This document shows positions 7,033 to 21,371 of a DNA stretch of 26,850 nt, piece by piece. A program made the position numbers and the translations under genes. A model generated the notes under the pieces. That model was not told the DNA's origin. It did no database searches and was given only the letters and a program-made list of their open reading frames with translations. The stretch covers positions 1-26,850 of IMG/VR virus record IMGVR_UViG_3300012936_006543; one strand, given 5' to 3'. The DNA is from a virus. Position 1 is the first letter of the stretch, and each line of letters starts with the position of its first letter.

Positions 7033-8310
7033 TTACAATACCTTACTAGCATAAGTTGCCAAAGCCGATCTTTCCCCTCTTTCCAAGTAGACTTGTGCAG
7101 AAAGCTCACTTGACCTAAACCTGTCTATTGTAACAGAAAGCCCGTTCGATCTCTTATCGAGGTAGGGTGTATCGATCTGATCTGTGTCTCCCATCAAAAC
7201 TATTTTGGAACCTTCCCCGATTCTCGTTATAATAGTTTTAAGCTCATGAATGCTAGCGTTTTGTGCCTCATCGACTATTATAAAAGCATTGTTAAAAGTT
7301 CTACCTCTTATAAAAGAAAGAGGGGCTATTTCTATTTGCCCTTTGTCTATCATTGCTTCAAAATATGTCTTATCTTTAAAGTGATGCCTAAAATTATCCA
7401 TCAAAGGAGAAAGCCAAGGATCCATCTTTTCTTTAACGTCACCTGGCAAAAAACCGATATCTCTTCCCACGGGTTCTATGTTTCTTGTAACTACTATTCT
7501 TTCGTATCTGTCTGAAAGAAGTGCGTCAAGCCCTGCCATAAGAGTTAGAAAAGTCTTACCTGATCCTGCCCTCCCTGTAAGTGAAACTAAGGGAATTGAG
7601 TCATCGTTTAAAACAAACCATGCAAACTTTTGTTCTTTGTTACGAGGTTTGACGTCTGTTGAACCGCTAGAAGTATCTGGTATTGAACATAGGTTTCCAT
7701 TTCTATGGTAAACCAGGGCTGATTTTCCTTGTGTGGTGCCCTGTGCTACAATAAATTCATTCTCATCAAACTCTGCTTCTGACTCAATAGATCCATCTTT
7801 ATAGAGATTGTTGATTTGAGAGTCTGTCAGCTCTATCAATCTGTTTGATTCCTCGTATATTTTTTCACCCGTCAGGTGATCCTTGTAATAGTCTTCGGCT
7901 TCAAGGCCTAGGGCATCACACTTAACTCTTAGATTTATGTCTTTTGTGATTACTTTTACCACATTTTTGTCTGTCTTGAGACTAAGTGCCGCAGCAATAA
8001 TCTGGTTGTCTCCTCTTTCATCATCAAGACCAGTGGAAACTTTTGGAGAAGTTATCAAGACTCTGACTGTCTGATTTTCCTCCTCTATCATGATACCTTG
8101 ATCAAGTCTTCCCATGCCTCTAAGGAAATCTAAGAATCGGTTTACGTATCTAGCGTTCTCTCCGAGAAGACCTGGTTTTTCTTTGAATCTATCAAGTTCA
8201 TCTAAAACGACAAGAGGTATTACTACGTCGTTGCCAGAAAAAGAATGAATAGATTCTTTGTCATATAGTAGAACAGAAGTATCTACTATTAGCGTTTTTC
8301 TTAAATTCAT
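7033..8310 (-). CDS. phoH: PhoH-family ATPase with N-terminal PIN domain (PhoH2 type)
   Basis: Residues 1-150 form a PIN nuclease domain: TLIVDTSVLLYD at 6-17, ELDRFK near 38-43, DDERGDN at 96-102 and TKDINLR near 122-128 supply the acidic metal-binding residues. Residues 225-425 are the PhoH ATPase: Walker A GRAGSGKT at 246-253, Walker B IIVDEAQ at 344-350, then GDTDQID. The PIN-PhoH fusion is the PhoH2 architecture, for which RNA unwinding and RNase activity are reported in bacteria; PhoH is common in marine phages. Start ATG has GGAGAT upstream and diverges from the small plus-strand regulator gene 50 bases away. The phosphate-starvation link is family lore and not visible here. Confidence 0.95.
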   Translation of the reverse strand: MNLRKTLIVDTSVLLYDKESIHSFSGNDVVIPLVVLDELDRFKEKPGLLGENARYVNRFLDFLRGMGRLDQGIMIEEENQTVRVLITSPKVSTGLDDERGDNQIIAAALSLKTDKNVVKVITKDINLRVKCDALGLEAEDYYKDHLTGEKIYEESNRLIELTDSQINNLYKDGSIESEAEFDENEFIVAQGTTQGKSALVYHRNGNLCSIPDTSSGSTDVKPRNKEQKFAWFVLNDDSIPLVSLTGRAGSGKTFLTLMAGLDALLSDRYERIVVTRNIEPVGRDIGFLPGDVKEKMDPWLSPLMDNFRHHFKDKTYFEAMIDKGQIEIAPLSFIRGRTFNNAFIIVDEAQNASIHELKTIITRIGEGSKIVLMGDTDQIDTPYLDKRSNGLSVTIDRFRSSELSAQVYLERGERSALATYASKVL

Positions 8311-8360
8311 TGTAAATCTCCAGTAGAAGGACTAAATGTTATTTTAAGTAATGGAGTCAT

Positions 8361-8624
8361 ATGAGTAATCTAAAAGATTTTGTTTGTGTTAAAAAAGTAA
8401 AAAAATCCAACTCTCCCTGCGAAGAGAAGGATTGTAGACATCGCATTTCTTGTTCGAGCGATCTTAACTGTTCTATAATAGCTTCTGAGGCGGGACCTAA
8501 GACTTTGCAAGAAATAGGAGACTATTATGGTATTTCTAGGATGAGAGTGTGTCAAATTGAAAAAGCCCTCATGGAGAGGCTAAAGAACTCTAAGTTCTTC
8601 GAAGAGTTCAACCCTTCATCCTGA
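8361..8624 (+). CDS. Small Cys-rich sigma-70 region 4-like HTH protein
   Basis: 87 aa on the plus strand with GGAG upstream of the ATG. The C-terminal half (about 47-72) reads TLQEIGDYYGISRMRVCQIEKAL, matching in outline the helix-turn-helix of sigma-70 region 4 (TLxEIGxxxGxSxxRVxQIExxAL). The N-terminal half holds a Cys cluster (C20, C25, C31, C37) that could bind zinc or Fe-S. It lacks regions 1-3, so it cannot be a full sigma factor. It may act as a transcription regulator or late-sigma-like factor. It diverges from phoH and overlaps the end of the FtsZ-like gene by nine bases in convergent orientation. Confidence 0.75.
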   Translation: MSNLKDFVCVKKVKKSNSPCEEKDCRHRISCSSDLNCSIIASEAGPKTLQEIGDYYGISRMRVCQIEKALMERLKNSKFFEEFNPSS

Positions 8625-9761
8625 CAGCATGCATATTGCAATTAGACCGGGAACTTTTTCCTTTATGTAGACGCCAGAGAACAAAGTGTCAGTTCTTCCT
8701 CCCACGTAAGAAAAAGCAGCTTCCAGATTTTTACTAATTTTGGGATCTGATGCCATTTCAGTGTTGGGTACTAAAAGAAGAGATCCTGTTTTAGTATGGG
8801 ACGGAGGAGGAGGGCAAGGTGATGACTTTATACAGCCTGCCAAAACCTCAGAACCTAGGTCTCTTCTGTCAGTGTCTCTTATTACCGTGCTTCCGACTAC
8901 GTGTCTACCCGGAGTAGACAAACATTTTTCCAAGTCCTTTGAATCAAATGTCTGAACATCAGAGTGTGTTGCAGCCAGCTTAAAGACCTGGGCAAGAAGT
9001 TTTGCAAAATTCTTATTTGCAACAGGAAGTAGATTTAGCATTCCTACTTTGTTTCTAAGAAGTGTTAGTTGTCTTTCATTGTCAATTACAATGTGAGGGT
9101 GTGGAGTCACGTCTCTTAAAAGCTCTTCAAAATTAGACTTTATCGTAGAGTTTAAAAGCTCCTGAGAGCTCGGTTTTGAAACTATGTAAAAAACCTTTCC
9201 TGATGCATTTATAGAAGTTAGATATCTATCCAGGCCTCCGTGCAAAACTGAGCAAGCACTTCCTGTTCCGCCTCCACCTCCTGCCAAGACAAAAATCCAG
9301 TCAGGGGCTCCAAGCCTTGCCCTGACAGCGTCTTCAACAAGAGTGCTGTTTTCTCCAAGTATTTTCTTTCCTAGAGTTACATCTTTTCCCACACCGTCAG
9401 CGCCCGGTATGAGTAGAAAGTTTTCTGACTCGACCCCATCAGGCTGATCTTTTTCGGTGGTGTTAACAAGTAGAGATCTACTAAAGCCTACATCTATAAA
9501 GGCTTTTGCTAGTTTTCCTCCGCCTCCACCGACTCCTATGAACGCACACTCGATGGCACTTTCAGCAGAATTTTCGGGTAAGAGTTCGGATGTGTCTTCT
9601 TTTACGTCCTCTGAATATGCGTCTACGAAATCAAATTCGTCTTCAAATTCACTCACTTCTTTACCTCCTTTTAAAGAAACTAAATCTTTCTTAAAAGACT
9701 CTTTTCTATTTTTTCTTTTTTTCTCAACAAGCTTTAATGATTTAGAAACAGAGCTTCCCAT
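8616..9761 (-). CDS. FtsZ/tubulin-like GTPase
   Basis: 381 aa. Tubulin-superfamily motifs appear in order: T1 loop FIGVGGGGGK at 74-83, a LLVNTTEKDQP strand like the FtsZ INTDxQAL segment, a T3-like IPGADGVGKD, and the signature G-box AGGGGGTGS at 160-168. A T7-like loop FDSKDL (272-277) keeps the two acidic positions of FtsZ NxDFADL. The C-terminal domain (about 325-381) ends at the VTVVATG-equivalent strand, with no tail for FtsA/ZipA binding. A charged ~68-residue N-terminal extension precedes the fold. It likely polymerises with GTP; roles could be a PhuZ-like phage spindle, particle positioning, or interference with host FtsZ. Which one is not evident. Confidence 0.85.
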   Translation of the reverse strand: MGSSVSKSLKLVEKKRKNRKESFKKDLVSLKGGKEVSEFEDEFDFVDAYSEDVKEDTSELLPENSAESAIECAFIGVGGGGGKLAKAFIDVGFSRSLLVNTTEKDQPDGVESENFLLIPGADGVGKDVTLGKKILGENSTLVEDAVRARLGAPDWIFVLAGGGGGTGSACSVLHGGLDRYLTSINASGKVFYIVSKPSSQELLNSTIKSNFEELLRDVTPHPHIVIDNERQLTLLRNKVGMLNLLPVANKNFAKLLAQVFKLAATHSDVQTFDSKDLEKCLSTPGRHVVGSTVIRDTDRRDLGSEVLAGCIKSSPCPPPPSHTKTGSLLLVPNTEMASDPKISKNLEAAFSYVGGRTDTLFSGVYIKEKVPGLIAICMLSG

Positions 9762-9779
9762 TTTATCTCATTTTCCTAG

Positions 9780-9790
9780 AGATAAATATG
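9780..9790 (-). promoter_or_regulatory. Candidate promoter/regulatory motif CATATTTATCT
   Basis: The same 11-mer as at 7016-7026, here about 20 bases upstream of the FtsZ-like start. The ribosome binding site before this start is weak (AGGA at a long spacing). Proposed as a shared phage regulatory element only on the basis of recurrence. Confidence 0.3.
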
Positions 9791-9816
9791 TTTGCTGAGA
9801 GGTTCTAAGAGGATTA

Positions 9817-10011
9817 TTACTTTCTCTCTTTTTCTACAGATATTGTGGTCTTGACCAGTTCTGCTGACTTTGTCTTTAAAAGTCTCAATCCCCTTCTAGC
9901 TCTAACACCGGCAGAAGCGTTGCCTCCTGCATTCTTCATTACATCGAGATCAAGAGATTCAACGAGTGTTTTAATTTCGGCCCAAAGCTCACGTATATTC
10001 GATTCTGACAT
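9817..10011 (-). CDS. Histone H1-like (Hc1 family) DNA-binding protein
   Basis: 64 aa, with AGGAG before the ATG. The pattern IKTLVESLDLDV...GGNASAGVRARRGLRLLK (about residues 13-46) matches the Hc1/bacterial histone H1-like signature (LLESxxxDxxKxxxGNKAAAxRVRxxxxxLxK), with conserved Gly-Asn, Ala-Gly, Arg-Arg and a basic C-terminal helix. Hc1 proteins condense DNA in Chlamydia, and related short proteins are common in Bacteroidota and in phages. Here it may coat phage DNA or remodel the host nucleoid. It sits just upstream of the FtsZ-like gene, a neighbour that may also organise DNA in the cell. Family call is by motif reading alone. Confidence 0.7.
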   Translation of the reverse strand: MSESNIRELWAEIKTLVESLDLDVMKNAGGNASAGVRARRGLRLLKTKSAELVKTTISVEKERK

Positions 10012-10022
10012 CTTATTTTCTC

Positions 10023-10253
10023 CTATAATTCTATCTTGTTTGTTGAAGTGTCTTCTTCATTTTCGGAGAAGATTTCACATATCTTCACCATTGCTTCTCT
10101 ATCTTCTAGCTCTAGCGCTAGAAGCTTAATAATTTTCTTTTTTTGAAATTCATTGACCCCAAAGTTTAGAATTTCAAAAACGATTTCCCGAGCTTTTATA
10201 CTGTCCAGGACATCTCTTTTTTCTTCTATTTCTTCTTTAGAAAGTTTATTCAT
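10023..10253 (-). CDS. Hypothetical protein, 76 aa
   Basis: Highly charged, probably all-helical protein (MNKLSKEEIEEKRDVLDSIK at the start, acidic C-terminus). Its ATG follows the stop of the 159-aa gene directly (TAAATG), and an AAAGGA site lies inside the end of that gene. No domain recognised. It belongs to a row of four small genes between the chaperonin-like gene and the FtsZ-like gene. Confidence 0.7.
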   Translation of the reverse strand: MNKLSKEEIEEKRDVLDSIKAREIVFEILNFGVNEFQKKKIIKLLALELEDREAMVKICEIFSENEEDTSTNKIEL

Positions 10254-10733
10254 TTAAAAACTCGTCCTTTGAGTGTATGACTCAATTCTAAATTTTTCCG
10301 GCCCAAGGAATCGAACAGACTTGCCTTGAATGTTTTCTTCCATCTCTTCTTTTGACAAGACTATAGTTGAATCCCACTCTTTGTTATCTATGATAAATTG
10401 AGCATATTCGTAGTCGCACAGCTCTCTTTGATATTGACCCAGGAGCTCGAACAAAGAGCTGGGTAGAGAAAATTTAAAATCATCTATCGAAAGTATTGAT
10501 CTCATGTCTTCTTTTCCCGTCACAATCTCAGACTTGCAGACATCATAGACTCTGTGCGTCGCGCCGCAATTGTTACAAGTAGCATACTTGGAAACCACAG
10601 TATCGCTTTCATCGATTATTGAAAAGACAACAAACTTGTGAAAAACTGGATCTGAAGCATTCTTAAATTGAGGCAAAATACAGTGACACTGAACTAGGTG
10701 TTTTATGCCCTTTGTCTTAGAGTTCTTTTTCAA
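10254..10733 (-). CDS. Conserved phage-type protein with probable zinc site, 159 aa
   Basis: The N-terminal HLVQCHCILPQF and a later ATCNNCGATHRVYDVC supply a CxC...CxxCxxxH pattern that could form a zinc ribbon (Cys near residues 16, 18, 54, 57). The strongly patterned FHKFVVFSIIDESD segment between them looks like a beta-sheet core. The C-terminus (LGPEKFRIESYT) is non-polar and acidic mixed. I know of similar proteins in marine phage genomes without an assigned role. It overlaps the preceding gene by 17 bases, so translation is likely coupled. Confidence 0.75.
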   Translation of the reverse strand: MKKNSKTKGIKHLVQCHCILPQFKNASDPVFHKFVVFSIIDESDTVVSKYATCNNCGATHRVYDVCKSEIVTGKEDMRSILSIDDFKFSLPSSLFELLGQYQRELCDYEYAQFIIDNKEWDSTIVLSKEEMEENIQGKSVRFLGPEKFRIESYTQRTSF

Positions 10734-10959: not shown

Positions 10960-12081
10960 CTAATTCTCTTGTAAAACTAGACAATTAGTATTATCTAAAC
11001 TCTTTCTCAAAGAGCTAGCAGATCTCTTTGCTACTTTAAAGCACTTTGAAGAAAAAACACCTAGATCTTTTGAAAGAACACAAGAGCCGTAAAACCCAGT
11101 TTCTTTGGCATGGATCATTGAATAAGAAACTCTGTCTTCCAAAACACCTAGAACGGACTTTAAGTGAAAAGGAACCGACACTGAGATATCTCTTTCAGAT
11201 GAATAAAGCCCAGTGATCGAAATCGTTCCTTGTCTTATTTTAACATCGTGACAAAAATCAAAAGACTCAGAGGTGAGGGTTCTCATTAAGACATGATTTT
11301 CTATGTTAAAAAAACCTTGGTGGTCTGAGAATCTTTCAAAGTACTCCAAATCTCCCTTAAGAACGATTGGAAAGACATACAGCCTTCTACTTGAATGATT
11401 TTCACTTAGGGTGTGAGAAACCTCGGGAGAAAACCCTCTTGCAAATATGACAAAATTCTTTTTATCTCGTGAGAGAGTTTGAAGTAAAGAGTCTATTTCA
11501 CTTACTGACTCTAAAACACCATCCAAAAATATCACACCCGCTTCGGTGATTTCATTTTTCTTAGTAGAAAACATCTCTGATAGATGACCATTCAAGACAA
11601 GACTTGGTGATGACCTCACTACCGGTCGAAAAGCCATCTCAGAGGGCGAAACTTTAATCCTGGCATCAACTGAGCTCTTATCTAATATAGATCTTACTAT
11701 CTTTGAAGAAACACCATTTCCGATCAAGTTTCTCATACTTTTGAAAATAGTTTCTTTTTCCACTCTGTGAAATGTCTCTTTAATCTCTATTGAATCTTTT
11801 TCGAAAAACATTTTAAGACAAAGAAAGCCTGCACCAGGAGAGATAGATTCCGAAGTCATCACAGCTTCCAGTATGATATTTCTTATTCCTATCTCTGCTT
11901 TATCTAAAAAAGACAAGTGGGACAAAACTCTGACTATGTCGGACTTTTGAGCCCTTACAGGCCGGCCGCCGTAATTAAAAGAAAGGCTTCCTTCTTCAAG
12001 CTTAGAGACAGTGCTGTATATTTTTCTAAGGACAGAGTTTTTATGAAGATCGATATCTTCTCTCACGATGCGAGAATTCAA
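10960..12081 (-). CDS. Divergent chaperonin (GroEL/Cpn60)-like protein
   Basis: 373 aa, start read as TTG at 12081. Three stretches line up by eye with GroEL. LSFLDKAEIGIRNIILEA (56-73) resembles IELEDKFENMGAQMVKEVA. Residues 178-240 (AGVIFLDGVLESVSEI...NFVIFARGFSPE) resemble the apical-domain ILLxDKKISNxREILP...PLLIIAEDVEGE. LEDRVSYSMIHAKETGFYGS (about 312-331) resembles KDRVEDALxATRAAVEEGxVPGG. The ATP-site DGTTT is replaced by SPGAGF, and the final equatorial segment is missing (GroEL is ~540 aa). It is therefore unlikely to be an active ATPase chaperonin. A substrate-binding or host-GroEL-interacting role is conceivable. A profile search is needed to confirm homology. Confidence 0.5.
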   Translation of the reverse strand: MNSRIVREDIDLHKNSVLRKIYSTVSKLEEGSLSFNYGGRPVRAQKSDIVRVLSHLSFLDKAEIGIRNIILEAVMTSESISPGAGFLCLKMFFEKDSIEIKETFHRVEKETIFKSMRNLIGNGVSSKIVRSILDKSSVDARIKVSPSEMAFRPVVRSSPSLVLNGHLSEMFSTKKNEITEAGVIFLDGVLESVSEIDSLLQTLSRDKKNFVIFARGFSPEVSHTLSENHSSRRLYVFPIVLKGDLEYFERFSDHQGFFNIENHVLMRTLTSESFDFCHDVKIRQGTISITGLYSSERDISVSVPFHLKSVLGVLEDRVSYSMIHAKETGFYGSCVLSKDLGVFSSKCFKVAKRSASSLRKSLDNTNCLVLQEN

Positions 12082-12090
12082 AGCAAACCG

Positions 12091-12258
12091 TTATTCTTTT
12101 TCTTTTTCTAGAACGGTATTTCCGTACCATGTTGTGAATCTAAAGAATCCTGAAAATACTCCGACGCCTATCATTATCCAGCCCTCGGTTATTCTCCCAG
12201 CAGAAACCATATAAGTTCCTGCCAGGATCAGGGATTCGGAAATTCCAAATGAACACAT
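12091..12258 (-). CDS. Small membrane protein, 55 aa, coupled to prkA
   Basis: Short frame starting MCSFGISESLILAGTYMVSA. Its ATG shares one base with the prkA stop (TAATG), pointing to translational coupling. Two hydrophobic stretches (about 5-19 and 27-40: GWIMIGVGVFSGFF) are separated by a charged AGRITEG turn, so it could form a helical hairpin in the membrane. The tail is charged (EKEKE). No family recognised; holin-like size and topology are noted, but no lysis gene is nearby. Confidence 0.7.
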   Translation of the reverse strand: MCSFGISESLILAGTYMVSAGRITEGWIMIGVGVFSGFFRFTTWYGNTVLEKEKE

Positions 12259-14189
12259 TAGCTATCTCTCCACAAGTTGTTAGAAGCATAAGCCAGTATC
12301 TCTTCAGCGCTGTCGGCTGTGTAACCATATTCATCTATCATGGTCTGGACCATTTCACTATACTTCTTCTTTTGTTCTTCGTCCCTAGTCTTAGACTTAG
12401 TAACGATTCTTGCCATGTCTTTCACGGAAGAAATTAAGTAAGATTCTATTGCTTCTTTCAGCGGCTCATAACTTCTATAGTCGATCTTTGTGCCTCTTCT
12501 CATTTGAGCAAACATATAAGCAGTAACATCATGCCTGAAGCCATCTTTAGAAGATCCGGTAATTCCAATCTGCTCTTCAATAGATTTCATGTAATTCTCA
12601 TCAGGATCTCTTTCTTCTTTTGTTACTCTATCTTTGAGAGTTTGATGGGTAACATAAGCTTCTGCATTATCAAGGTAAGAATCAAAAAGTGACTGAGCCT
12701 GTTCTTCGTATGCGCTGACGAACGCTTTTGCGATTTCATTCTCTAGGATCTTAAGATATTCTTCTCTTACGACCTGCTGAATGATCTGTAGGCATCTTGT
12801 CTTAAATTCTTCGTCAACAATTTGCTCCTTGACCATGTTTGTCAACGACTCCATGACACTTACCGGAGTGATAATGTCAGAGTCAGAATCAGTCAAAGCG
12901 TTATCAAGGGCCTTAGTGATGAATCTTGTTGAAATACCCGACATTCCCTCGTTAGTTGTTTCCTCTCGAAGGTCTTTGATGTCTACTTTCTTAACTCTTC
13001 CTTTTTCGATAACTTCTTCACCATTGTAAATCTTCATCTTGGTGAGAAGATCACACTTACCAGACTCCTTAAGACGACTCATGACTGAGAACATCGCAGC
13101 AACCTTGATTGTGTGAGGCGCTATATGAGCCTTGAAGTCAGAGAGACCCAACATTTTCTCGTAAATCCTGACCTCTTGATCAAGCTCGAGGCAGTAAGGT
13201 ACGTTTACCTTAACAATTCTGTCTAAGATGGCTTCGTTTGTGTGCTCACTTTGGAATCGATTCCATTCTGCTTCGTTGCAGTGCGCTAAAATCACTCCAT
13301 CAAAGTGAAGCATATCGCTCTTTCCCGGAGAGGGAATTCTCTTCTCTTGCGTAGCTGTAATGATTGTGTGCAAGAACTCAATTTCATTCTTAAAAACTTC
13401 AACGAGCTCTACAATTCCTCGGTTACCTACATTAAAAGCACCGTTTAGAGAAAGAGCTCTTGGGTCATCCTCTGCATATTCGTCAAGCTTTGAGATATCG
13501 ACGCTACCAATGAGAACGGAAACATCCTGGCTATTTGCATCCATCGGAGGGACAGATGCTAGTCCTCTTCTTCCTCTTTGTGAGAAAGTAGTTTCTTTTA
13601 CTGGGTAGTCCTCGTATCTTCCCTTGTAGTTTTCTATGAGGTCATATCGGACAACTGGGCTGATATCACCATCGATGTTGACACCAAGCTTGTCAGAAAA
13701 AGTCTCTCTCAAGCTCCTTGGAATCAACTGAAGTGGCTCGCCTCGTTGTGGGTCTCCTTCAAGGTGGTAATATGTTTCACCTTCCAAACCTCTCTTGATA
13801 TGCTCCGTGAGAGCTGACTTACCTGCTCCAACCGGACCCATTAAAAGAAGTACCTGTCTGCTCTCTTCGCCTCTGTGTGCAGCAGACTTTAAGAATCTCA
13901 TTATCTTCATAACTACTTTTTCCATTCCAAAGAAATGATCTTTAAAATAGTCGTAGACTTTTATATTGTCGTTATCGAAGATCCTTGATTTTCTAGGATC
14001 AGAATTTGGCATTGACTCAATGCCATGTTTTACCAAAGCGTCGTAAAGTCTCTGGTGGCCTGTCTTAACGAGTGAAGGATCGTTTTGAACTAACTCAAGA
14101 TAGTCAAGGAAAGTTCCTTCAAACTTTTCTTTCTTCCCTGCTTCTCTCTGAGTTTTTATAACTTCTAGAAATTCTTGTTTGATACTCAT
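12258..14189 (-). CDS. prkA: PrkA-family AAA+ serine protein kinase (YeaG-like)
   Basis: 643 aa, close to bacterial PrkA (~630-645 aa). It opens with the typical FEGTFLDYLELVQNDPSL segment (23-40) and carries YFKDHFFGME, the Walker A GPVGAGKS (118-125), HLEGDPQRGEPLQLIPRSLR, the LAHCNEAEW motif (about 305-313) and the C-terminal kinase-like region (about 420-643). In bacteria PrkA/YeaG works with YeaH and SpoVR/YcgB in sporulation, nitrogen starvation and stationary-phase survival; kinase activity, and in Bacillus protease activity, have been reported. Here it follows spoVR by 35 bases in the same order of transcription. All key regions appear intact, so it is probably functional. Confidence 0.96.
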   Translation of the reverse strand: MSIKQEFLEVIKTQREAGKKEKFEGTFLDYLELVQNDPSLVKTGHQRLYDALVKHGIESMPNSDPRKSRIFDNDNIKVYDYFKDHFFGMEKVVMKIMRFLKSAAHRGEESRQVLLLMGPVGAGKSALTEHIKRGLEGETYYHLEGDPQRGEPLQLIPRSLRETFSDKLGVNIDGDISPVVRYDLIENYKGRYEDYPVKETTFSQRGRRGLASVPPMDANSQDVSVLIGSVDISKLDEYAEDDPRALSLNGAFNVGNRGIVELVEVFKNEIEFLHTIITATQEKRIPSPGKSDMLHFDGVILAHCNEAEWNRFQSEHTNEAILDRIVKVNVPYCLELDQEVRIYEKMLGLSDFKAHIAPHTIKVAAMFSVMSRLKESGKCDLLTKMKIYNGEEVIEKGRVKKVDIKDLREETTNEGMSGISTRFITKALDNALTDSDSDIITPVSVMESLTNMVKEQIVDEEFKTRCLQIIQQVVREEYLKILENEIAKAFVSAYEEQAQSLFDSYLDNAEAYVTHQTLKDRVTKEERDPDENYMKSIEEQIGITGSSKDGFRHDVTAYMFAQMRRGTKIDYRSYEPLKEAIESYLISSVKDMARIVTKSKTRDEEQKKKYSEMVQTMIDEYGYTADSAEEILAYASNNLWRDS

Positions 14190-14224
14190 GTTCTAATAAT
14201 ACTCCAAACCTAAATAGGCGTAAT

Positions 14225-15535
14225 CTATATTTCCCACATTTCTTCTTCGATAAGAGTAAAAAGTTTTACCTCATCACCCCACAGAGTACGTATGTGCCGA
14301 ACAACAGCATCGGCATGATCGAGTTCTAAATCTCTTCCATCGTGCTCATGGCGAACGATCAATGTATTGTCTTCTTCTATTTCGTCAATGTAAACCACGG
14401 GAATACCATTTGTTCCAATATTCGTGATCAAGTCATCTCTGATTCTCATCCATCCATCATCATCATGAATGTCATCTACTGTGAATCCTACTTTGTTCTT
14501 TTCTGAAAATGAAAAGAGTCCTAGTTTTTCACATAGTTCGTGGGTGAGGTATTGTCTTATAAAAGCGACATCATGAGAAGATTCTCTTGCAATAAAAGCT
14601 TCTTCGATACCGTGCTTCTCTATGATATCCTGAAAGATCACAAAGCCCAGATGATAAGGATTCAAGCCCCCTAGGTGAGGTCTAATTACCTGGTTGTGCA
14701 TTTTGAGAAACGGTATGTGCCATTCTTGAGGTAGCTCTAGTTCGTGACACAATGTGTAGTGCCAGTAACTCGCCCAGCCTTCATTCATAATCTTTGTTTG
14801 AATTTGTGGAATGAAGTAACTGGCACCATCTCTTACGATATTAATAACATCTCTTTTCCATTCAGGCATGTTACGAGAGTGTTCTGAAATAAAACCAAGT
14901 AGATCGTATTCCGGCTCAAGAGGAATCTTATTCAAATCAAAATTCACGTATTCACCATCCTCATCTTCCTTGATCAGCTTGGTGTATTTCTTCACAAGTT
15001 GTGCCCGTGACTTCTTAACTCTTCCGTATCGATCTGTTTGAAACTGTATTGCGTGTGCAGCATCCAGAACCGCTTCGACTTCTTCAATCCCGATCGTAGG
15101 ATCCTCTACGTAACCTTGAATTCTCTTTTTCGCACTGCGTAACCTACCTACGATTGTGCCTGGTCGCGTTTCTTTGAACATCCTATTATTCTTAAAGAAG
15201 TCAGAGTGACCAACACAGTGTGCCATTATCAGTATCTGAAGGTATGCCGGGTTTTCTCTCATCAAGTACGCGATCGAGGGATTACTGTTGATAATCAACT
15301 CGTAAGGCAAACCTTCCATGCCCAGGTTGTACATGGTTCTTGTTCTTTCGAAACTCTTTCCATAGGACCAGTGACCGTAGTGAGTTGGCATTCCGTGATA
15401 AGCCATGTGACCAATCATCGAATAGTAATCACAAACTTCGTAGGTGATGGGAAACCAATCTAAGCCTTTTTTCTTGGCCAGTTCGGATATCTTCTCATCC
15501 CATTCTTCTAATAGTTTAAAATCCCAATCCATCAT
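14225..15535 (-). CDS. spoVR: SpoVR family protein (YcgB-like)
   Basis: 436 aa, slightly shorter than SpoVR/YcgB (about 470-510). Typical landmarks: LDWFPITYEVCDYYSMIGHMA is cut to DWFPITYEV...MIG.MAYHGMPTHYGHWSYGK in the first 60 residues, then ELIINSNPSIAYLM, ILIMAHCVGHSDFF, NEGWASYWHY and LNPYHLGF. The conserved His/Glu residues (HCVGHSDFF, NEGWASYWH) could bind metal, but the biochemical role of the family is unknown; the name comes from a cortex-formation defect in Bacillus. The ATG overlaps the yeaH stop (ATGA), and a perfect GGAGGT site lies within the last yeaH codons. This is one of three genes of a complete bacterial stress module. Confidence 0.96.
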   Translation of the reverse strand: MMDWDFKLLEEWDEKISELAKKKGLDWFPITYEVCDYYSMIGHMAYHGMPTHYGHWSYGKSFERTRTMYNLGMEGLPYELIINSNPSIAYLMRENPAYLQILIMAHCVGHSDFFKNNRMFKETRPGTIVGRLRSAKKRIQGYVEDPTIGIEEVEAVLDAAHAIQFQTDRYGRVKKSRAQLVKKYTKLIKEDEDGEYVNFDLNKIPLEPEYDLLGFISEHSRNMPEWKRDVINIVRDGASYFIPQIQTKIMNEGWASYWHYTLCHELELPQEWHIPFLKMHNQVIRPHLGGLNPYHLGFVIFQDIIEKHGIEEAFIARESSHDVAFIRQYLTHELCEKLGLFSFSEKNKVGFTVDDIHDDDGWMRIRDDLITNIGTNGIPVVYIDEIEEDNTLIVRHEHDGRDLELDHADAVVRHIRTLWGDEVKLFTLIEEEMWEI

Positions 15536-16701
15536 TTACCTCCAAAGAACTTCTTGAAAGCGGGCCACACTTCTTTCTTGTTGTTCATGCGTGACATTTT
15601 TAATTTCTTGTCCGCATGCGGCTTATAAACGTTTGAAAGTTTACTCATGTCCCAAGAAGAAGCGCTCTCTTTGTACTCAACCTCGGGCCCGATTTCGCAG
15701 TAGCCGAACATCTGTGAAACGTTCTTAAGTTTCTCCAAGAGACCAAGCGTTTTCTCAGTATCGTCAGGCCAGTTATCTCCATCAGAACATTGAAAAACGT
15801 AGATGTTCCAAGAGTTTGGATGAAAACGTTTTCTAACGATCTCATCAACCAGACCCAAACCAGAAGAAACCATCGTACCGCCAGAATTTCCACGAGTAAA
15901 GAATTGATCTTCATTTACCTCGTATCCTGATGTGTCGTGAGAAACGAATACGATTTCAGTGTGGTTATACTTGGATCTGACGAAATGGTAGAGAAGAAAG
16001 AAGAAACTACGTGCGAGAAACTTCTTATTCCTGGTCATCGATCCTGAGATATCCATCACAAAAAAGATTACTGCGTTCGAACATTCCTTAATCGATCGCT
16101 TGTAATGATTGTAAACCAGATCTTGATCATGGAAAGAAAACTTCTCTTCTTCGTCAAAATTATCTCTTCGACTAGCAGCCTTTTTTCTCTTGATTCTTTG
16201 AATCGCAGTTTTCTTCTTGTTAAGACGAGGCAAGATACCTTGTGGGCGATATCCCTTCTTCTTGATCTTCTCTGACATGATCTTCTTGAGAGATTTTCTC
16301 TCAAGATCAGGAAGCTCTAGGTCTGCGAAAAGGTGATCTGCGAGTTCTTCAAGGGTGATTTCAACATCGTAGTACTCCTCACCCGCTTCTTGTCCCGGTT
16401 TGTCACCAGGCTGCTTTTGTTTCTGTTGACCTTCGCCGATCTTTTGTCCTCGACGCACTTCTTTACCGGGAGCAGAACCAACTCGTTTGTTGTTCTCGTT
16501 GTTACCGTAAACAAATCTGTATTCTTTGATCCCTCGGACAGGAATCTTGATTTTCTTCTTTCCATCCTGTCCGATAATTGATTCATCCGCAACGATGTTG
16601 TGAATCCCTTCTTTGATAGCACGGTCTATTTTCTGCTTGTGTCTTCTTCGATCCGAAGCAGATCGATCAGCAACGGTTTTATGTTCCCTAAAGATTGACA
16701 T
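15532..16701 (-). CDS. yeaH: YeaH-family DUF444 protein with von Willebrand A domain
   Basis: 389 aa (E. coli YeaH ~427). The N-terminus begins MSIFREHKTVADRSASDRRRH, followed by a basic/Gln-rich region (80-106). The vWA-like domain has the MIDAS motif DISGSM (D217, S219, S221), a Thr in SGGTMVSSGL (T276) and Asp in CSDGDNWP (D307), so metal-dependent ligand binding looks possible. DUF444 genes are typically next to prkA and spoVR in bacteria. It ends FFGGK with the ribosome binding site for spoVR built into these codons. Upstream is a 94-base gap with a GAGGTGAGG site. Confidence 0.96.
   Translation of the reverse strand: MSIFREHKTVADRSASDRRRHKQKIDRAIKEGIHNIVADESIIGQDGKKKIKIPVRGIKEYRFVYGNNENNKRVGSAPGKEVRRGQKIGEGQQKQKQPGDKPGQEAGEEYYDVEITLEELADHLFADLELPDLERKSLKKIMSEKIKKKGYRPQGILPRLNKKKTAIQRIKRKKAASRRDNFDEEEKFSFHDQDLVYNHYKRSIKECSNAVIFFVMDISGSMTRNKKFLARSFFFLLYHFVRSKYNHTEIVFVSHDTSGYEVNEDQFFTRGNSGGTMVSSGLGLVDEIVRKRFHPNSWNIYVFQCSDGDNWPDDTEKTLGLLEKLKNVSQMFGYCEIGPEVEYKESASSWDMSKLSNVYKPHADKKLKMSRMNNKKEVWPAFKKFFGGK
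15538..15543 (-). promoter_or_regulatory. Shine-Dalgarno GGAGGT for spoVR inside yeaH end
   Basis: On the minus strand GGAGGTAAATGATGG contains a consensus site, the yeaH stop TGA and the spoVR ATG. The arrangement suggests termination-reinitiation coupling, keeping YeaH and SpoVR production linked. Confidence 0.75.
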
Positions 16702-20558: not shown

Positions 20559-21371
20559 ATGAAAAATACAATTAGATTTCTGGCAAAACATTTTATAAAG
20601 AGCGCCGGGGCTGTTATAGCAGTTATCCTGTTCTCTCTGAGCGGATTCCTGAGCTGTTCATCAATACCTAATTCGATAGTAAGGACTGAATATCCTCGTT
20701 CTGATTCTATGCCTCCAGTAGATGCTTTTGGTTTCGTTATGGTTGAAGTTACATACACGGCAGATAAATGTCTACCTTCCCCTGAGATAGAGAATTGCGA
20801 ATTAGTTATTGACAAGCTCCCGCCGATAACGCAGTCATCAATCGGAAGTGGTCTATTAGTAAGAGCGAAGTCTAAGACAATATTTCTAACTGCCGCGCAT
20901 GTCTGCTCTCCCGATGAATCTGTTGCATACGAAAGGGACGGGATAAAGATAAAAATGAAGTCTGAGGTCGTTGTAAAGATAAGAACTCAGGACGGAGATC
21001 TTATAGATTCAGACATAGAGAAGCAAGATCACAAATCAGATTTGTGTGCACTTTCTCTTTCAAGAGTATATACAAAACCTGTTCACTGGTCTCGAGAAGA
21101 GCCGAAGCTAGGAGAGAAAGTGTACGCTCTTTCTGCGCCCATGGGAATAAATCATCCGACCATGACTTTAGTATTTTCAGGATATTATAGCGGACACATT
21201 TTCAGCATGCACCACTATACTATTCCGACGAGGCCAGGATCCAGCGGGTCAGTTGTCTTGGATAAAAACTTCAGAGGTGTAGGAATGCTTAATGCAGCTT
21301 ATATAAACATGGAGTCAATAGGAATCGGCGCCGGATACTATTCGATAAAAAACTTTCTAGACTCTATTTAG
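20559..21371 (+). CDS. Exported trypsin-like serine protease (possible lipoprotein)
   Basis: 270 aa, one of only three isolated plus-strand genes. A basic N-terminus and a hydrophobic stretch (about 16-32) end at SGFLSC (C33), an imperfect lipobox, so the protein is probably exported and perhaps lipid-anchored. The chymotrypsin-fold triad is readable: TAAHVC (H114), SDLCALSL (D161) and PGSSGSV (S229). GSGLLV and YALSAPMG fit the expected strands. It resembles HtrA-type or viral trypsin-like proteases but has no PDZ domain. A role in changing the host envelope, superinfection exclusion or lysis is speculative. Its 3' end overlaps the next minus-strand gene by eight bases. Confidence 0.88.
   Translation: MKNTIRFLAKHFIKSAGAVIAVILFSLSGFLSCSSIPNSIVRTEYPRSDSMPPVDAFGFVMVEVTYTADKCLPSPEIENCELVIDKLPPITQSSIGSGLLVRAKSKTIFLTAAHVCSPDESVAYERDGIKIKMKSEVVVKIRTQDGDLIDSDIEKQDHKSDLCALSLSRVYTKPVHWSREEPKLGEKVYALSAPMGINHPTMTLVFSGYYSGHIFSMHHYTIPTRPGSSGSVVLDKNFRGVGMLNAAYINMESIGIGAGYYSIKNFLDSI

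Follow-up and report, generated by a model that had tools for sequence, protein, structure and literature searches.

The 26.85-kb window, by which we mean the whole stretch of viral DNA that was analysed (a virus record that is itself a fragment), encodes a genuine member of the tubulin/FtsZ superfamily. The group to which this gene belongs is apparently undescribed, and what appears new in it, as judged from the sequences of the family, is an N-terminal extension that looks like the product of two translation starts. In terms of kinship, the group forms a separate clade that differs from the phage tubulins known so far; by profile, it appears closest to the TubZ proteins of plasmids and phage G. 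The features of the gene are collected in Table 1.

Table 1. Features of the tubulin gene in the window (SD, Shine-Dalgarno)
Feature	Position	Strand	Basis or remark
Tubulin/FtsZ-superfamily GTPase, long form, 381 aa, ATG start	8616..9761	-	weak SD, -4.2 kcal/mol
Predicted short form, 346 aa, in-frame GTG codon 36 (9654-9656), N-terminus MSEFEDEFDFVDAY	8616..9656	-	SD -12.3 kcal/mol
SD AAGGAGGT, near-perfect, 6 nt before the internal GTG	9663..9670	-	sequence
Long-form-only segment, residues 1-35, MGSSV.. peptide and basic stretch	9657..9761	-	predicted disordered or lone helix, low confidence
Acidic/aromatic motif DEFDFVDAY, residues 41-49	9615..9641	-	DFDFV(E/D)(A/H)Y in relatives
T1 loop GVGGGGGK, residues 76-83	9513..9536	-	alignment of relatives and mapping on FtsZ
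T4 glycine box GGGGGTGS, residues 161-168	9258..9281	-	alignment of relatives and mapping on FtsZ
T7 loop TFDSKDL, residues 271-277	8931..8951	-	D273/D276 = E. coli FtsZ D209/D212

The Pfam Tubulin model matches all 44 aligned members of the family, and the GTPase motifs reported in the original prediction for this gene, namely the T1 loop, the glycine box and the acidic T7 residues D273 and D276, are present. Invariant in the 44-member alignment are glycines 76, 78, 79 and 81, residues 163–168 (GGGTGS), E201, N228, N249, D273 and D276. The family residues that match N43, the GGGTG box, E138, N165, N186, D209 and D212 of E. coli FtsZ are kept and invariant, and the guanine contacts and both catalytic T7 aspartates do not vary across the family. 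The equivalents of E. coli FtsZ R142 and N207 are replaced. The position of the FtsZ NxD asparagine is Thr271 in the window protein and Ala or Ser in its relatives, a real difference from FtsZ that had been recognized correctly at the outset, as had the loss of the partner-binding C-tail: in the alignment, all members stop no more than a few residues beyond the last core strand. Ahead of the core, F43, F45 and V46 of the acidic/aromatic motif are kept in at least 90% of family members.

The AlphaFold model has a two-domain tubulin fold with a glycine box of the GGGTG(T/S)G type (core pLDDT mostly about 95 or more; pTM 0.82), preceded by about 60 residues of low confidence; in structural comparison, the superposable core begins at about residue 67. 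The core model matches Bacillus cereus TubZ with a Z-score of 32.2, CetZ2 with 31.7 and Staphylococcus aureus FtsZ with 28.6, such that TubZ and CetZ are tied as the best solved structural matches. The nearest viral models, an uncultured Caudovirales phage “FtsZ Cell division GTPase” and a Myoviridae “Cell division protein”, rank ahead of PhuZ.

A first scan returned 66 matching stretches from 65 distinct viral loci (52–96% identity, no frame breaks); with a profile scan added, 119 related loci were found to carry the gene in whole or in part, which with the window makes 120 viral loci. A direct tblastn search of 50,697 phage records with the window protein gave no match, and a divergent family member used as the query matched only phage G among the phage records. 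When small alignments were compared one to one by profile–profile search, with E-values that are valid as a ranking only, plasmid TubZ came first (E 7e-25 over 302 columns), followed by FtsZ (2e-11) and PhuZ (7e-5); gp138 of phage G taken alone gave 1e-11. In a tree with FtsZ, TubZ and PhuZ sequences (without CetZ, and with the other types of tubulin drawn mostly from a restricted selection of plasmids, phages and metagenome-assembled genomes (MAGs)), the family is its own clade with a support of 99/100, and a long branch sets PhuZ apart. The initial impression that the protein is closer to FtsZ is thus not sustained, as TubZ ranks first by profile, TubZ and CetZ are best structurally, and the clade is separate. 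Two observations weaken the case for TubZ as the nearest cellular relative, however: a plain profile search of PDB sequences places FtsZ first (E 4e-10), and the tree does not settle the place of the family among TubZ and FtsZ. No description of this group of tubulins was found in the literature, and related viral proteins carry FtsZ or cell-division annotations, which indicates that relatives have been annotated before.

In addition to its profile and structural ranking, the likeness to TubZ, which serves segregation of Bacillus-type plasmids (e.g., pBM400 of Priestia megaterium), extends to a shared T7 type, (L/F)DxxDL, and a similar T3 region, GxDGVGK. The T7 loop reads [TAS]FDSKDL in the family, xLDxxDL or xFDxxDL in TubZ and xLDxxD(V/I) in PhuZ. 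Identity to TubZ is about 23%, and the family lacks the C-tail of TubZ, which has H11 and a basic tail, whereas it has an N-terminal extension and a second start, resides in T4-type marine jumbo phages, and has no adjoining TubR-like gene or iterons that could be seen beside the gene. Bacillus phage G gp138, annotated as a “putative FtsZ-like cell division protein”, counts among the TubZ relatives. With FtsZ, which supplies the best single PDB sequence matches, the family shares the fold, T1, T4, the T5 Glu, the T6 Asn and the T7 aspartates; it differs in the loss of the NxD Asn and the T5 Arg (the T7 loop is [TAS]FDSKD rather than NxDxxD), in the absence of a C-terminal linker or conserved C-terminal peptide, and in a TIGR00065 score of 27.7 bits that lies below the curated cut-off of 295.2. 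CetZ, the archaeal cell-shape tubulin, is about 23% identical in superposition. PhuZ of the PhiKZ-like nucleus-forming jumbo phages shares the T7 aspartates and its status as a jumbo-phage tubulin, but is very distant by profile, and its C-terminal H11 and acidic knuckle (PMC3678025, PMC7950403) are missing from the family.

The original prediction described a charged N-terminal extension of about 68 residues. The extension itself stands, but two versions of it are probably made, as a near-perfect Shine-Dalgarno sequence precedes a GTG at codon 36. Many relatives start at MS(D/E)FDF, and some, such as L057, L059, L100 and L116, start exactly at the short-form N-terminal motif; in others, the ORF extends further upstream to an M[AGP]S[ST] start, and the stretch behind this start varies and is often basic. 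In nearly all long-form members, the DFDFV motif is preceded by an in-frame ATG or GTG that has a good Shine-Dalgarno sequence. An internal start with a Shine-Dalgarno energy of −5.5 kcal/mol or lower is found in 37 of 42 distinct long-form members, compared with 17 on average and at most 26 in 100 synonymous-codon shuffles; the 42 members are related by descent, and these counts are not phylogenetically independent. At the upstream end, 46 of 120 family ORFs start with M[AGPTC]S[STG] as opposed to 5 of 2076 other ORFs. Taken together, the gene seems to be translated from two starts in many members, which would yield a long and a short form.

Alternatively, the internal start alone could be used, with the upstream in-frame stretch an untranslated leader that is open by chance. 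A weak Shine-Dalgarno sequence precedes the upstream ATG of the window gene (−4.2 kcal/mol versus −12.3 kcal/mol at the internal GTG; shuffle mean −1.9 kcal/mol), and the window and its relative L002 differ by few silent changes upstream, as a single start would have it; changes of either kind are few in the extension of this pair, which is uninformative on protein-level selection. However, 42 distinct members share the M[AGP]S[ST] start, several of them (for example, L006, L015 and L076) with a Shine-Dalgarno sequence of its own, and in close pairs pN is well below pS in the long-only segment (e.g., 0.19 versus 0.53 and 0.15 versus 0.36), which fits a translated but loosely constrained segment. 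We therefore regard a single start as rather unlikely.

A shared N-terminal signal was sought between the tubulin long form and other proteins of the same phages and was not found. In related loci, several unrelated proteins (e.g., L021:5064-5744, L019:9078-9977, L079:1797-2777) start with a similar L..LIR..LLE-type helix, which is possibly a common targeting or pro-peptide signal. In another locus, an MPSS-starting ORF of 133 residues (L031:2949-3350) immediately precedes the tubulin gene and runs into its start (ATGA overlap); it is possibly a split version of the long-form N terminus.

The 120 loci fall into 34 with a context like that of the window (PhoH, PrkA and sigma-like genes), 45 in which the tubulin gene sits among head, neck or packaging genes, and 41 elsewhere. 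Neighbors in the head module are terminase, portal, protease, scaffold, major capsid or neck genes; the terminase, portal, protease, neck adaptor, sheath and capsid were identified, and the scaffold was assigned from position and composition. The position within the module varies, being after the capsid gene, between portal and protease, before the scaffold or near the terminase. Its apparently repeated arrival in the head module suggests that the tubulin gene is probably often expressed late, together with the head genes. No gene partner is conserved across contexts. Likewise, no small HTH (TubR-like) gene adjoining the tubulin gene is conserved across loci, and none lies beside the gene in the window; for TubZ-style iterons, positions 7900–10300 of the window contain only chance-like repeats, and a distant site is possible.

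The carriers make up part of the marine jumbo phages related to T4, and signs of a PhiKZ-type nucleus system were not seen in them. One convincing tubulin match per record was found in 14 of 14 large records (101–293 kb), and the T4 Gp23 capsid family was found in 11 of the 15 records searched, with capsids closest (up to about 48% identity) to those of a 484-kb uncultured phage, Microcystis phage Mel-JY01 and Flavobacterium phage immuto. In contrast to PhuZ carriers, these phages have a T4 Gp23-type capsid, and no RNA polymerase beta-prime (PF04997) was found in 12 records, possibly fragments; no match to chimallin was found in 10 records, also possibly fragments, with a single-protein query that would miss distant forms. 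The notion that tubulin is a universal gene of the capsid lineage was rejected: the gene is absent from nine IMG/VR records (47–257 kb, possibly fragments) with a related capsid protein, which makes it an accessory rather than a core gene of this lineage. It is also absent from immuto, Mel-JY01, RM378 and two huge phages, and capsid loci without a tubulin gene are common. With regard to the host, four GTDB contigs with the family gene occur in three Flavobacteriales MAGs. Flavobacteriales were nevertheless not accepted as the host, because the carriers use Shine-Dalgarno sites widely (55% of genes versus 10% after shuffling) and the capsid-related Flavobacterium phage immuto hardly does so (1 of 14 starts at −4 kcal/mol or lower).

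Our best explanation for the whole, held with about equal confidence and doubt, is that the protein is a TubZ-like filament GTPase of T4-related marine jumbo phages that is made from two starts in many members and positions DNA or capsids. The protein probably binds GTP and self-polymerizes. The fold and the conserved catalytic residues suggest a GTP-driven filament that would form during infection, and the invariance of the two T7 aspartates in 44 members argues for a subunit able to activate GTP hydrolysis in its own filament. The biology of TubZ and PhuZ, of which the latter centers the phage nucleus and moves capsids (PMC13282480), together with the partial linkage to head genes, is consistent with a filament that would position or move phage DNA or capsids. 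The short form would comprise the acidic DFDFV motif and the GTPase core, and the long form would carry an additional, often basic peptide at its N terminus, by which the filament could be bound to DNA, to a membrane or to another protein; an N-terminal tether would do what the C-tail does in FtsZ and TubZ. Against this explanation stand the incomplete link to head genes (45 of 120 loci, with 34 beside PhoH/PrkA-type genes and 41 elsewhere), the accessory nature of the gene and the lack of a conserved gene partner. A more far-reaching proposal, which we advance tentatively and with more doubt than confidence, is that the family is a third lineage of phage tubulin outside the nucleus-forming phages, with two isoforms produced by programmed internal initiation, tethered long and untethered short subunits, and an N-terminal tether that replaces the C-tail.

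A stricter TubZ-type function in DNA partition, in which plasmid-like or pseudolysogenic phage genomes are segregated via a TubR-like adaptor and a centromere, would agree with plasmid TubZ as the nearest profile, with the match to Bacillus phage G gp138 (E 1e-17), itself related to plasmid TubZ, and with the location of the window gene just downstream of a histone H1-like Hc1 gene. We judge it improbable nonetheless, as no iteron array was seen around the gene, no small HTH gene is conserved across contexts, a C-tail for TubR binding is missing, and a lytic role accords better with the adjacency to head genes. That adjacency, seen at several positions in the head/packaging module across lineages, could also speak for a virion-assembly factor, that is, a structural or scaffold-like GTPase that serves in assembling or packaging heads instead of forming a dynamic filament; but 75 of the 120 loci lie elsewhere, shared late expression may suffice as an explanation, and the complete two-domain tubulin core with a polymer-type T7 loop is kept, all of which leave such a factor a doubtful candidate.

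The original prediction had left open a poison-subunit role against host division; as such an inhibitor, the protein would co-assemble with or cap host FtsZ filaments and stop division during infection. Phages do target FtsZ via other proteins, such as T7 Gp0.4 (PMC13423816). The shared FtsZ fold (about 20% identity) and the missing C-tail for division partners would be compatible with such a subunit; however, the profile is nearer to TubZ than to FtsZ, 20% identity makes co-assembly with host FtsZ unlikely, and the T7 aspartates, which a poison need not keep, are invariant. The PhuZ proteins of two related phages co-assemble, at far higher identity, and the known phage inhibitors of FtsZ are small, unrelated proteins. 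The idea rested on the lost Asn and tail, but the aspartates are retained throughout, and TubZ and PhuZ sequences vary at or lack the NxD Asn, so its absence, ordinary outside FtsZ, is no sign of a dead or poison subunit. We consider this role very unlikely.

In reviews and surveys, the tubulin of jumbo phages is linked to the nucleus-forming phages of the PhiKZ type: in a marine survey PhiKZ-like jumbo phages are said to “uniquely” encode tubulin (PMC9123017), and two FtsZ/tubulin types are counted in PMC7824862. A tubulin that is widespread in marine jumbo phages of T4 type, in which no signs of a nucleus were seen, would make the role of the filament for genomes versus capsids testable without that structure, and a gene with two starts would be a convenient means to study how the tethering of such filaments is controlled.

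Several neighboring genes in the window merit description. The tubulin gene is convergent with a gene on the plus strand (8361–8624) whose 3′ end overlaps its own by 9 bases and that encodes a Cys-rich protein with sigma-70 region 4 (Pfam E 4e-9; 20 loci). Directly upstream of the tubulin gene, on the minus strand (9817–10011), is a small histone H1-like protein, assigned from the Pfam Hc1 match of its homologue in L003 (E 6e-7), with the same cluster present in 13 loci. Between the tubulin gene and prkA, a very diverged phage chaperonin is encoded at 10960–12081 (minus strand); its family (21 loci, ~370–480 aa) has 19–27% identity to the first sequence, no Pfam match and no canonical GroEL DGTTT in the consensus, and its AlphaFold model matches GroEL/Hsp60 over all domains (Foldseek E 3e-23, 12–13% identity). 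A complete phage PrkA–SpoVR–YeaH (DUF444) operon follows at 12258–16701 (minus strand), in which PrkA matches Thermus phages and huge phages at about 30–34%. On the strand opposite to most genes (plus, 20559–21371) lies a lipoprotein-looking trypsin-like protease, whose cluster is present in 19 loci.
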